From Hwanghaeella grinnelliae (GTDB lineage: Bacteria > Pseudomonadota > Alphaproteobacteria > UBA8366 > Aestuariispiraceae): DNA of 64,000 bases. The notes beneath the pieces were generated by a model. It saw only the letters and a program-made list of their open reading frames with translations. It did not search any database and was not told the origin of the DNA. The translations under genes and the position numbers were made by a program. Each line of letters opens with the position of its first letter. Within the stretch, counting starts at the first letter, position 1. The stretch covers positions 620,421-684,420 of the forward strand of contig NZ_SADE01000002.1 in assembly GCF_004005845.1 (NCBI RefSeq), given 5' to 3'. Below, piece by piece: positions 36,892 through 41,054 of the stretch.

Positions 36892-36944
36892 TGACGTCGT
36901 TCTAACTTTTTGTTTTGCTTTGCATATTAGTGTGGGGAAAAGCG

Positions 36945-38042
36945 ATGAGCACAGATACAAAGCAAGCACCGTCGGATGTTGGCGCGGTGTTGGATGCGCA
37001 GGCTGAACAGGCTGCGGTGAAACCGGCAGCGAAAACGCCGACCCAGGCAAAGGCGAAATCAGCGAAGCCGAAAACCGCAAAAACCCGTGTTGCCAAAACG
37101 GGTAAGGCCAAGCCCGTGGGCGTTGAACCCGGCAAAACGGATCGAGCCGGGGCACCGCAGCATGATGGCGGTGAGCAACTGCACCACCTGGCTGAGATGC
37201 GGCACGATCCCGAAACCATTCGCCGCCTCTTCGAGAATGGCGAATATCCGTATCACACAAAGATCAAGCGGCAGGTCTATGAACAGCACAAGGCCGACCT
37301 TCAGGTCGAATTGCTGAAGGTCCAGCGCTGGGTGAAAGAGACGGGACAGAAAATTGTCATCCTGTTCGAAGGGCGCGACGCGGCCGGCAAGGGCGGCACC
37401 ATCAAACGCTTTATGGAACACTTGAACCCCCGCGGTGCGCGTGTCGTCGCATTGGAAAAACCCACCAACCAGGAACAGGGCCAGTGGTATTTCCAGCGCT
37501 ATGTCGAGCATTTGCCGACGGCGGGTGAAATCGTGATGTTCGACCGGTCCTGGTACAACCGGGCAGGGGTCGAGCGCGTCATGGGCTTCTGCAACGGCAA
37601 CGACTATCTGGAATTCATGCGACAGGTGCCTGAGCTTGAGCGGATGTGGACGCGGTCGGGCATCCGGCTTTACAAATACTGGTTCTCGGTCACCCAGGAC
37701 GAACAGAAACGCCGCTTCGCCCAGCGCAAGAAAGACCCGTTGAAACAGTGGAAGCTATCGCCGATCGACATCGCCTCGCTGGAAAAGTGGGAAGACTATA
37801 CCGAGGCGAAGGAAGCGATGTTCTTCTATACGGATACGGCGGACGCGCCGTGGACCATCGTAAAGTCATCCGACAAGAAACGCGCGCGCTTGAACTGCAT
37901 GCAGCATTTCCTCTCCACATTGTCCTATCCCGGAAAGAACGAGCATGTGGTTCATGGACCGGACCCGTTGATCGTCGGCTCCACCCATCATGTGATCGGT
38001 AAAAGTGAGCACATCCTGGGGGCAAGCCTGCAAGGCGATTAA
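36945..38042 (+). CDS. ppk2: Polyphosphate kinase 2 (class I-like)
   Basis: PPK2 transfers phosphate between polyphosphate and nucleoside diphosphates. Walker A is ILFEGRDAAGKGGTIKRF, Walker B FDRSWYNRAGVERVMGF, and the lid arginine/lysine region is RFAQRKKDPLKQWKLSPID; EDYTEAKEAMFFYTDT, WTIVKSSDKKRARLNCMQ also match. I start at the ATG at 36945 (GGGG 8 bases upstream), giving 365 residues. The first 75 residues are a Lys/Ala/Pro-rich extension, e.g. AKTPTQAKAKSAKPKTAK, reminiscent of histone H1-like tails, so DNA or polyP association is possible. Divergent from the desaturase with a shared FNR-type box. Confidence 0.94.
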   Translation: MSTDTKQAPSDVGAVLDAQAEQAAVKPAAKTPTQAKAKSAKPKTAKTRVAKTGKAKPVGVEPGKTDRAGAPQHDGGEQLHHLAEMRHDPETIRRLFENGEYPYHTKIKRQVYEQHKADLQVELLKVQRWVKETGQKIVILFEGRDAAGKGGTIKRFMEHLNPRGARVVALEKPTNQEQGQWYFQRYVEHLPTAGEIVMFDRSWYNRAGVERVMGFCNGNDYLEFMRQVPELERMWTRSGIRLYKYWFSVTQDEQKRRFAQRKKDPLKQWKLSPIDIASLEKWEDYTEAKEAMFFYTDTADAPWTIVKSSDKKRARLNCMQHFLSTLSYPGKNEHVVHGPDPLIVGSTHHVIGKSEHILGASLQGD

Positions 38043-38059: not shown

Positions 38060-38296
38060 TCAGGGTTCGTCGTGATCTTGGCGGTGGAAAGCCAATCCGT
38101 AGAGCCATTCCGCAAGTGTCAGGATCAGGAATCCACCGACGGCGAAGATCGGCAACCGCCATTCGACCAGATAGCCGCGATAGGGGCGGATTGGTTTCCA
38201 CCCGGTGAAATCGGGGAAATAGGTCCAGGCCGCCCAAAGCGCCGCGCCCAGCAGAACGGCGACGGACAGGCCCAGAATGTGGCGGAATGTCGTCAT
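38060..38296 (-). CDS. Small two-helix membrane protein of the Rieske operon
   Basis: A 78-residue protein I do not recognise. Two helices are evident (HILGLSVAVLLGAALWAAWT and LPIFAVGGFLILTLAEWLYG) around a conserved-looking periplasmic loop FPDFTGWKPIRPYRGYLVEW. It is the last of five minus-strand genes that begin at 41054, 13 bases after the preceding gene. A role as a small subunit or assembly factor of the heme/Rieske protein is plausible but unproven. Confidence 0.65.
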   Translation of the reverse strand: MTTFRHILGLSVAVLLGAALWAAWTYFPDFTGWKPIRPYRGYLVEWRLPIFAVGGFLILTLAEWLYGLAFHRQDHDEP

Positions 38297-38309
38297 CTGG
38301 CCTTTTCCT

Positions 38310-39071
38310 TCACCGCCTGCGAAGGCCGGTGGCGTCGACCGCCAACACCGTCAAATTGCCGATGCGGGTCAGCGCACCGTCCAGGGTGACCGGTTCCGCA
38401 GTGTGCCGCAGGATTTCCGGCGACAAGGCTTCTCCAGCCGGTCCGGTCATCAGAAAGAAGCTCTCCCCTTCCACCGGCGCGGCGGAGACGAAGACCGGCG
38501 GCTGTCCGCCCGCGATACACAGATTTGCGCAGGCCTTGTGGGCAAGGCCGGTGCCCGGTCGCATCGCACCGGCCGCGCATCGCCCGTCGCAGATTTCGCC
38601 GGACAGGCGCCAACGGCCTAACGGTTCGGCTTGCGGGATTGCCGCGGCGTCGCCCTCAATCGCGGCCAGGCCCTGTTTGCCGTTGCCCAATTGCAGCATG
38701 CGGAGCGAGCCGCGCTCCATCAGAATGCCGCGCACCGCGACCGCTTTGCCCGCCAGGGGTTGCACACGATCTTGCACGCCGGTCTTGCCGTTGCCGTTCA
38801 GCAGAATGACCTTTCCGGCCGGAATCGCCTCTGTCCCCTTGGTGACCCATAGCGCCGGATAGGCCCCGCCGATCACCGTGCCTTCAAGATTCTGGGGGCC
38901 GATATCGAAACGGAAACGACCGCCGTCGGGATCTGCCTGCGTCGCACCGACCAGCACGGCAGCGCCAGCGAAACCGACAGTCATAATCACGCAAACCGCA
39001 GCCAAGAAAGCCCGCAGGGGTTTCGGGATCTTTGCCGCCCAGCCGACGAAGAAGGGTTGTGCCGATGTCAT
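38310..39071 (-). CDS. Membrane-anchored protein with two CxxxC pairs, Rieske operon
   Basis: An unrecognised 253-residue protein. One N-terminal helix (about residues 18-42, PLRAFLAAVCVIMTVGFAG) anchors a periplasmic part with two OB-like beta halves (QNLEGTVIGGAYPALWV; LGRWRLSGEICDGRCAAGA). Cysteines form CDGRC and ACANLC, the second in the motif GLAHKACANLCIAGGQPP. Such spacing with a nearby His suggests a metal or redox site or a cytochrome-assembly role. It overlaps the Rieske gene by 4 bases (ATGA). No database family can be asserted from memory. Confidence 0.68.
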   Translation of the reverse strand: MTSAQPFFVGWAAKIPKPLRAFLAAVCVIMTVGFAGAAVLVGATQADPDGGRFRFDIGPQNLEGTVIGGAYPALWVTKGTEAIPAGKVILLNGNGKTGVQDRVQPLAGKAVAVRGILMERGSLRMLQLGNGKQGLAAIEGDAAAIPQAEPLGRWRLSGEICDGRCAAGAMRPGTGLAHKACANLCIAGGQPPVFVSAAPVEGESFFLMTGPAGEALSPEILRHTAEPVTLDGALTRIGNLTVLAVDATGLRRR

Positions 39072-40123
39072 GTCATTCCCCCTTCCATCAACCGAACGGG
39101 TTCCTGATAGGTGCCGGGCGGATTCGCTTTCCCATGAATGAACAGCATGCCGTCCGTCAGGCGTAGCCGATAGGTCGGGATCATTTCGGTAAAGGGCGGC
39201 GGGGAGCGCCCATCCTCCATCCGGTAGCCGAAACCGTGCCAGGGGCAGGTGATGCAGCCGCCGACAATCTTGCCTTCGCCGAGCGGTCCGTTCTGGTGGG
39301 CGCAGGCATTGGCGACCGCGGCCAGGGTATCGCCGTTGCGGAAGACCGCGACGCGTTCGTCCGGTGACAGCACGACGATCCGTCCGCGTTTGTCGGGGAT
39401 TTCCATCGGCGGGCAGACGGGGACCCAGTCGTCATCGGGTGAGGCTGTCGATGTCATCCGCCTTTCCTTCACAGCCGCCAGGACGTGCAGCACCGCCACC
39501 GCCCCCGCGCCGCCGAAAAGAAGCAGGGTCAGCCCAACCGTTGCCTGATCCAACCAGGCGCCGAAGGCCAGATGCCCGGTCGCCGCCAGGTAGCCCGCAT
39601 AGACCAGCAGGTGCAGCCGCTTCCACAGTTTGGGTCCCAGAAAACTGAGCCAGAAGTCATGACTGGTGAAGGCCATGACCGCCATGACCAGAAGCGCGAG
39701 GATGCCCAAAGCCTCGAACGGAAATCCGACCACATGGCCGAAGGCGGTGTTGGAACTCAGCAGGGCTTCCAGCATCGGCGTGCGGCTGAAGGCAAAGTAC
39801 CAATCCAGAACGAACAATGCATGACCGATTGCGATGAAAAAGGTCAGAACTCCAAAATGCCGCCGGTTGTACAAGAGCGGTAGGAACCGCGAATCCAATC
39901 GGGCGAGGGGGCCGATCAGCAGGATGACCGTCAGCATCAGATAGGCGCAGGTCCCGAAGGCGCGCGCCCGCCAAATCGGTGCGTCGACCGGCCTCGCATG
40001 GTCGGCAAGCGGCGGCGCGACATAGAGGAAAAGCGCGATATACAGGATGGCGGCCGCCAGCAAGACACCGTCATAGAACCATTTGTTTCGGTTCCACTGG
40101 ACGGGGATGTAGCGGACGCTCAT
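39068..40123 (-). CDS. Fusion of ferric-reductase-like heme membrane domain with a Rieske [2Fe-2S] domain
   Basis: Residues about 15-215 are a multi-helix b-heme domain like the ferric-reductase/YedZ (MsrQ) superfamily: RRHFGVLTFFIAIGHALFVL gives one histidine pair and LWKRLHLLVYAGYLAATGH the other. The C-terminal part (about 235-340) is a Rieske domain with Cys-x-His and Cys-x2-His ligands in ACAHQNGPLG and CITCPWHGFGY; the Rieske type is the oxygenase-ferredoxin form rather than bc1. The linker is cytoplasmic by the positive-inside rule. The chain could move electrons from a cytoplasmic donor across the membrane. The acceptor is unknown. Overlaps genes on both sides by 4 bases. Confidence 0.82.
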   Translation of the reverse strand: MSVRYIPVQWNRNKWFYDGVLLAAAILYIALFLYVAPPLADHARPVDAPIWRARAFGTCAYLMLTVILLIGPLARLDSRFLPLLYNRRHFGVLTFFIAIGHALFVLDWYFAFSRTPMLEALLSSNTAFGHVVGFPFEALGILALLVMAVMAFTSHDFWLSFLGPKLWKRLHLLVYAGYLAATGHLAFGAWLDQATVGLTLLLFGGAGAVAVLHVLAAVKERRMTSTASPDDDWVPVCPPMEIPDKRGRIVVLSPDERVAVFRNGDTLAAVANACAHQNGPLGEGKIVGGCITCPWHGFGYRMEDGRSPPPFTEMIPTYRLRLTDGMLFIHGKANPPGTYQEPVRLMEGGMT

Positions 40124-40509
40124 GACCAGCCCCGTATATCGGCAAGGCTCAGTTTTTCAGGGGGCGGCGGGGTCGATCCATCCGGTCGAACCATAAGGGC
40201 GGTCAGAAGGATCGCCGCGATGCAGGCGGCCAGACCGAAACCCAGCCGGCCGATCGCCTTGCGCTGCGGGGTGTGGCGGTTGCGCCAGGCCTCGCGACCC
40301 GACGCGGCCAATCGCCAACGCCAAAGGACGATGGGCCAAAGCAGGACAAGACCCGGTGCGATGAGCACGCGGAAAACATAGCCGCCCCTGGCGTTCGGCT
40401 CTACACGGTCCAATCCGAAAAGCAGAAAAGCGATTGCGATAACAGCGCCCGCGCCGAGCCAAAGCTGTGCCGCGGCAATAAGGAACTGGGCGGTTTCGGC
40501 CGCGTTCAT
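40120..40509 (-). CDS. Three-helix membrane protein of the Rieske operon
   Basis: A 129-residue protein with no family I recognise. Helices lie at about residues 8-32 (LIAAAQLWLGAGAVIAIAFL), 44-63 (YVFRVLIAPGLVLLWPIVLW) and 88-108 (LGFGLAACIAAILLTALMV). The basic loop WRWRLAASGREAWRNRHTPQ sits between helices 2 and 3. Its stop overlaps the Rieske fusion start and its ATG overlaps the FMN reductase stop, so the five genes are one translational chain. Likely a subunit of the same membrane complex; function unknown. Confidence 0.65.
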   Translation of the reverse strand: MNAAETAQFLIAAAQLWLGAGAVIAIAFLLFGLDRVEPNARGGYVFRVLIAPGLVLLWPIVLWRWRLAASGREAWRNRHTPQRKAIGRLGFGLAACIAAILLTALMVRPDGSTPPPPEKLSLADIRGWS

Positions 40510-41054
40510 TTTGCCTCTTTGACCAAGGCAACCAGCGCAGCGACATGGCGGTTGAGCGCCTTGTCGGTCCGTTCATCCACAAGATTGCCTGCCTCGTCGA
40601 AAGCCTTGCTCGCTTGGGCGACCATCAGTTCGGGCAATTGCATGATCCGTGGATTGAAAGGGGTCAGGCAATGGCGCAGTGAATACTGCGACCGCTCGCC
40701 GCCGGCGCGCCCGGCCGCCGCCGACATGATGACGACGGGCTTTTCATTCAGGGGTTGGTTTTCGTCCCGGCTGATCCAATCGAGAGCGTTCTTCAAGCCG
40801 CCCGGCAGGTTCTTGTTGTATTCGGGGGTTGAGATCAGCACGCCGTCGGCCGCGCGGATCTGGTCCACCAGCACGGTAACGCCGGGCGGGGTGCCTTCTG
40901 CCTCAAGATCCTCATCGAACAACGGCAGGCGAATATCGGCCAAGGTGCACGCGGCATTGAAGTCGGGCCCGGACAGTTTTTGGAAGGCCAGTCGGATCAG
41001 CGCGGTATTGAACGAAGCACGGCGCAGCGACCCGGAAATCCCTAGGATTTTCAT
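40506..41054 (-). CDS. NAD(P)H-dependent FMN reductase (flavodoxin-like)
   Basis: A 182-residue member of the FMN_red/WrbA-like branch. The phosphate-binding loop of FMN is ILGISGSLRRASFNTALIR near the N-terminus, and ISTPEYNKNLPGGLKNALDW is the flavin-contact signature. The C-terminal helical part (QYSLRHCLTPFNPRIMQLPE) fits. I start at the ATG at 41054 with GGAAGG 10 bases upstream; a TTG at 41072 adds six residues. It is the first gene of the Rieske operon and may supply reduced flavin or electrons to the membrane protein. Confidence 0.85.
   Translation of the reverse strand: MKILGISGSLRRASFNTALIRLAFQKLSGPDFNAACTLADIRLPLFDEDLEAEGTPPGVTVLVDQIRAADGVLISTPEYNKNLPGGLKNALDWISRDENQPLNEKPVVIMSAAAGRAGGERSQYSLRHCLTPFNPRIMQLPELMVAQASKAFDEAGNLVDERTDKALNRHVAALVALVKEAK

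Follow-up and report, generated by a model that had tools for sequence, protein, structure and literature searches.

A conserved gene unit around a haem/Rieske fusion protein in Alphaproteobacteria: a candidate transmembrane electron conduit

Introduction

In Escherichia coli, the haem protein MsrQ is fed by the flavin reductase Fre. Meheust et al. 2021 (PMC8238504) described gene clusters in which an MsrQ-like protein is accompanied by flavinylated acceptors. According to Zhang et al. 2013 (PMC3591440), YedZ/STEAP proteins carry an arginine at the first canonical histidine, and a figure legend of the same paper lists the combination of a ferric reductase domain, a Rieske domain and FMN as architecture M4. 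The present analysis concerns a run of five genes (A to E) of Hwanghaeella grinnelliae, which an earlier note had regarded as an undescribed transmembrane electron-transfer unit. "Undescribed" does not hold for the fusion architecture of the central protein, which had been noted in 2013 (PMC3591440), whereas neither the operon B-C-D-E nor its Rieske-fused partners were found described in the open-access papers searched, a limited set.

Gene organization of the locus

The window, i.e. the whole stretch of 64,000 nucleotides that was analysed, contains genes A to E as consecutive minus-strand genes at 38060-41054 (Table 1). The ORF list and the DNA bore out the layout proposed earlier, with overlaps of 4 bases at A/B, B/C and C/D and a gap of 13 bases between D and E. 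The same-strand genes lrgA/lrgB were located 140 bases upstream of the run. A PPK2 polyphosphate kinase gene (36915-38042 of the window) is convergent with gene E, and the two stop codons are 17 bases apart. A promoter and terminator scan yielded no signal exceeding chance.

In profile searches with each protein, A and C matched Pfam families, whereas B, D and E reached no curated family. Gene A was assigned to FMN_red (PF03358; 2.9e-38, 131 bits against a cut-off of 24). Helix prediction agreed with the counts claimed previously for B (three) and E (two), and with a membrane anchor of one helix in D.

Table 1. Features of the gene A-E run (positions refer to the window)
Feature	Position	Strand	Description
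Gene A	41054-40506	-	182 aa; NAD(P)H-dependent FMN reductase, flavodoxin-like fold
Gene B	40509-40120	-	129 aa; small membrane protein, three helices
Gene C	40123-39068	-	351 aa; MsrQ/STEAP-type six-helix haem domain plus Rieske domain
C, haem membrane domain	39455..40090	-	residues 12-223; R87, H89, H101, H155, H171, H184, H213
C, ferredoxin-type Rieske domain, predicted cytosolic	39116..39430	-	residues 232-336; C274-x-H276, C293-x2-H296
Gene D	39071-38310	-	253 aa; predicted membrane-anchored periplasmic protein, one helix and two OB folds
D, Cys/His motif	38517..38591	-	residues 161-185; C165-x12-H178-x2-C181-x3-C185
Gene E	38296-38060	-	78 aa; small membrane protein, two helices

Conservation of the gene unit

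The alphaproteobacterial sample comprised 385 genomes, and a profile of C detected full-length relatives in 18 of them. A phylum sample of 398 genomes gave 7 hits, every one in the same class, and the best 80 named C loci were alphaproteobacterial throughout (Rhodobacterales, Hyphomicrobiales, Rhodospirillales and unclassified). The module is present in cultured strains of Roseobacter, Labrenzia/Roseibium and Rhizobium.

A homologue of B was encoded directly upstream of C at all 85 loci compared, and D followed downstream at 82 of them, so that the core genes are not scattered in relatives. An E-type homologue, recognized by HMM, was found after D at 63/85 loci, and most of the remaining loci have other small ORFs at this place. 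The core gene order was kept despite divergent C proteins (about 45-60% identity). On Rhizobium plasmids an SDR is followed by two small genes of 71 aa and 53 aa, which correspond to a split B, and then by C, D and E. Invariant residues of B are R35, F46-R47, P52 and W58-P59; the sequence of E is poorly conserved.

Gene A adjoins C in this order at a single locus of the 85, namely in the window. A conserved five-gene operon, as the earlier note had it, was therefore rejected: since B, D and E recur as neighbours of C and A is in place only here, the conserved unit, judged by gene neighbourhood, is B-C-D-E with A excluded. By the same comparison gene A is lineage-specific, and other lineages place other redox enzymes at that position. 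At locus L092 a homologue of A (39% identity) is found next to the unit in convergent orientation, which is not significant by itself.

In the tree, C of the window was placed inside a clade of the Rhodobacterales type (97/91), and the L048 copy, which belongs to a different species of the genus, fell outside. The window copy may, tentatively, originate from horizontal transfer; its branch is long. At two loci C is split between reading frames, by decay or sequencing error: L049 (8101-9201), from a genome of the same family, and L077 (9001-10090), on a plasmid of Rhizobium laguerreae.

The haem/Rieske fusion protein C

Pfam matches of C were Ferric_reduct (PF01794; 1.7e-11, 44.7 bits against a cut-off of 28, residues 57-181) and Rieske (1.2e-13, residues 232-306); no FAD- or NAD(P)H-binding domain was detected by Pfam. 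H101, H155, H171, H184, C274 and H276, positions not used for sequence selection, were invariant in 101/101 C proteins. R87, H89, C293 and H296 were likewise kept in 101/101, and H213 in 99; as R87, R88, H89, C293 and H296 lay within the search patterns for most homologues, their invariance is partly by construction, and all five also hold in the 18 genomes that were detected with the profile only. The full and conserved set of Rieske ligands expected for C was thus confirmed, for C293 and H296 partly by selection.

R87, H101, H171 and H184 of C align with R77, H91, H151 and H164 of E. coli MsrQ. An arginine (R87) hence occupies the position of the first canonical haem histidine, as in MsrQ and STEAP, and H89, H155 and H213 are extra histidines. 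The four b-haem histidines previously attributed to C are accordingly reduced to the three of MsrQ (H101, H171, H184), the remaining canonical one being R87.

Cysteines of the Rieske domain were found at positions 237, 274, 290 and 293 only (motifs CAHQNG and CPWHGF); the extra disulfide cysteines beside the ligands, as in the Rieske protein of the cytochrome bc1 type, are absent from C. By HMM the domain matched dioxygenase ferredoxins. An AF2 model of C was obtained with a pLDDT of 81; rows from plasmid records were excluded from the alignments used for structure models. In a fold search the membrane part resembled STEAP4 with Z 18.3 over 203 residues (STEAP/NOX range, Z about 14-18), and the Rieske part resembled the CarAc ferredoxin with Z 15.4 and rmsd 1.8 over 104 residues. 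Haem and a Rieske cluster are predicted as cofactors of C from these ligands and folds. Positive charge is concentrated in the predicted loops 2 and 4 and in the tail after helix 6, which by the positive-inside rule would make the Rieske domain cytosolic.

Against the curated MsrQ model, C scored 33 bits (cut-off 130) and another gene of the same genome 145; C was therefore rejected as the MsrQ of this genome. The operon contains no MsrP; one is encoded on another contig of the same genome.

The OB-fold protein D

The AF2 model of D (pLDDT 86) consists of a helix (residues 17-44) followed by two OB folds, with OB-fold matches over residues 49-144 and 147-253. The N-terminus ahead of the single helix is basic, which would position the D domains outside the membrane. 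A PDB sequence search for a known family returned a weak match over residues 75-135 only; Foldseek gave no match at E 0.001, and a second fold comparison returned common OB folds, which does not imply a novel fold. The flavinylation (ApbE) motif was present in 0/97 D proteins and absent from A-E as well, and no ApbE was seen among the neighbours examined.

C165, H178, C181 and C185 were kept in 95-97 of 97 D homologues, and ten of the 97 have V or I at the position of C161. Of the CxxxC pairs pointed out earlier, the second cysteine of the first pair is thus invariant but the first is not, and the kept set is the motif given in Table 1. Metal binding by these ligand-like residues is predicted. 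D shares this motif with secreted proteins that are encoded in relatives and are about 145 residues long; only two matches outside D and D-like proteins were found among 12,018 ORFs of the examined loci.

In several genomes, including that of Hwanghaeella grinnelliae, the small D-motif proteins lie next to SCO1/SenC and another Cys protein. In Hwanghaeella grinnelliae (L050, contig C4, 6805-8570) two small secreted Cys proteins, one of them with the D motif, directly precede SCO1/SenC. At L051 and L052 the trio of Cys proteins and SCO1 is followed by MsrP, identified with the curated model, and a similar gene is present at L053. The D domain family hence adjoins MsrQ-like and MsrP-like systems, and this is the main clue that D may be the partner of C for electrons or metal on the outer side, for which the case is circumstantial. 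A C-D fusion at L114 was dropped as proof of contact; it stems from a thin MAG (coverage 4.75), and its junction resembles a frameshifted form of the usual overlap.

The association with the copper protein SCO1 would also suit a quite improbable alternative, in which C is a STEAP-like ferric/cupric reductase and D a periplasmic metal-binding protein that donates or chaperones metal, either for uptake or for the copper centres of oxidases. STEAP4/STEAP2 are the top fold match of C, and the first OB fold of D resembles the metal chaperones CusF/SilF, among many other OB folds. Neither an OB fold nor likeness to STEAP demonstrates function, however; no metal transporter or regulator was prominent among the recurrent neighbours examined, and the partner enzymes are metabolic.

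Rieske-fused partner enzymes and other neighbours

Two large Rieske-fused enzymes recurred near C: a flavoprotein of 536 aa with Rieske and Glu_synthase domains at 38/85 loci, and a Rieske-TPP enzyme of 660 aa at 32/85 loci. The latter is most like pyruvate oxidase or ubiquinone-dependent pyruvate dehydrogenase; pyruvate oxidase was its best curated model, below the cut-off, and the match ends about 44 positions short of the model end. In the sample of 385 genomes, which is independent of these loci, C was present in 7 of the 8 genomes with a full-length Rieske-Glu_synthase protein (Fisher p 1e-9), as compared with 18/385 overall, and in 6 of 13 with a full-length Rieske-TPP enzyme (p 6e-6; the other 7 lack C), both p values being too small because the sampled genomes are related. 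The assembly of Hwanghaeella grinnelliae contains no full-length copy of either enzyme, and use of these partners by the genome of the window was therefore rejected.

At L156, L175 and L176 a Rieske-FMN_red fusion directly follows C, and D is missing. Since a flavin-reductase domain thus recurs beside C in Rieske-fused form, the assignment of gene A as the likely local electron donor to C in the window gains some support.

Other neighbours of the unit were SDR dehydrogenases, malic enzyme and an FAD oxidoreductase-aminomethyltransferase. A pteridine reductase-like SDR lies directly upstream of B at the related loci L079 (6809-7597; NF006597 over cut-off), L082, L083 and L153. Where a Rieske-Glu_synthase gene lies upstream of the unit, a Na+/H+ (K+/H+-type) antiporter recurs beside that gene (L155, 2608-3888, and other loci). 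In relatives of the Rieske-TPP enzyme at L206 (5988-8648) and L208 (5358-7991), the Rieske and TPP domains are preceded at the N-terminus by an additional iron-sulfur motif that is CDGSH-like (CRCGAS...KPYCDGSH); the two genomes are small, at about 1.4 and 1.8 Mb.

The partner enzymes bear on the direction of electron flow. An inward flow, in which C would draw on quinol or the periplasm and its Rieske domain would give low-potential electrons to reductive enzymes of the cytosol, for example the Rieske-glutamate-synthase-like protein, is considered highly improbable. It would account for the presence of C in 7/8 genomes with this protein, as glutamate-synthase FMN domains normally receive electrons; the pyruvate-oxidase-like enzyme and the dehydrogenases among the neighbours are, on the other hand, electron producers, and quinol is a poor donor for a Rieske centre of the dioxygenase type.

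Proposed electron path

The unit B-C-D-E is interpreted, with about even confidence, as a transmembrane electron conduit of the same kind as MsrQ, STEAP and NOX, in which a cytosolic Rieske [2Fe-2S] input replaces the FAD/NAD(P)H domain and electrons pass outward to D. Soluble redox enzymes would reduce the Rieske domain of C, probably gene A in the window and Rieske-fused flavin or thiamine-diphosphate enzymes elsewhere. The electron would then cross to the outer face via one or more b-type haems on H101/H184, perhaps also H89/H171. The next carrier would be periplasmic D with its C-x12-H-x2-C-x3-C site, an acceptor step that we infer, and D would reduce a further partner. B and E would be small structural subunits. 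The core proposal of the earlier note, a transmembrane electron-transfer unit built around a haem/Rieske fusion, is well supported by gene order, invariant ligands and the folds of STEAP/NOX and of Rieske ferredoxins, but not in its five-gene membership. The linkage to Rieske-fused enzymes and the recurrence of the D motif beside SCO1 and MsrP also speak for the conduit.

A wider reading, tentative and somewhat doubtful, takes C as an alphaproteobacterial Rieske bus: Rieske-bearing TPP, Glu_synthase-like FMN and FMN reductase enzymes would dock on the common membrane Rieske-haem protein, which would export electrons via D, as a new OB-fold C3H metal protein, to a periplasmic substrate.

Against a conduit that includes D stands its absence where a Rieske-FMN_red protein follows C; judging from these three loci, D is not always needed. 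The conduit reading is also weakened by the lack of conservation of gene A as a neighbour and by the 7 of 13 genomes that have the Rieske-TPP enzyme but not C. The loci without D would fit the main rival, held to be unlikely, in which C moves electrons from soluble Rieske-coupled dehydrogenases via its haems to ubiquinone, with B, D and E as assembly or structural proteins and D electron-free. Quinone coupling takes this rank because MsrQ has been described as the subunit through which MsrPQ binds quinone (PMC8238504). The early end of the pyruvate oxidase-like match could likewise mean that a Rieske route replaces direct quinone binding in the Rieske-TPP enzyme. The occurrence of D at 82/85 loci and the strict retention of its Cys/His motif argue against this, as they suggest chemistry over structure.

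If the conduit mechanism is true, Rieske ferredoxin modules, known mainly as partners of oxygenases, would also be the point at which electrons enter a transmembrane haem conduit, and enzymes of metabolism could be wired to the membrane through a Rieske domain of their own. The module offers a testable role for two uncharacterised families of Rieske-fused enzymes and for an uncharacterised OB-fold Cys/His family.

Comparison with known systems

MsrPQ with Fre of E. coli resembles the C unit in its six-helix haem protein, the same histidines, a possible flavin-reductase donor and a periplasmic partner, and D-like proteins are encoded beside MsrP in other genomes. Unlike MsrQ, C is fused to a Rieske domain and shows the extra H89, H155 and H213, and its partner D is no molybdoenzyme; Hwanghaeella grinnelliae encodes a true MsrQ and an MsrP elsewhere in its genome. 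With the MsrQ-like flavinylation systems (PMC8238504) the unit shares a PF01794 haem protein, a cytosolic donor module and an extracytosolic acceptor next door; it differs in that Rieske replaces the NAD-binding domain and D has no flavinylation motif. STEAP metalloreductases and NOX have the membrane fold in common with C, and STEAP also the arginine at the first canonical histidine, whereas the C chain has no NAD(P)H/flavin domain, unlike STEAP/NOX and the bacterial long-form FRE. The Rieske ferredoxins CarAc and BphA3 show the same Rieske fold with single CxH/CxxH ligand pairs, but the Rieske domain of C is membrane-tethered and no oxygenase is adjacent in the annotated loci. Architecture M4 (PMC3591440) likewise joins a ferric reductase domain with Rieske, and B, D, E and the partner enzymes are not mentioned alongside it in the legend and excerpted text of that paper.
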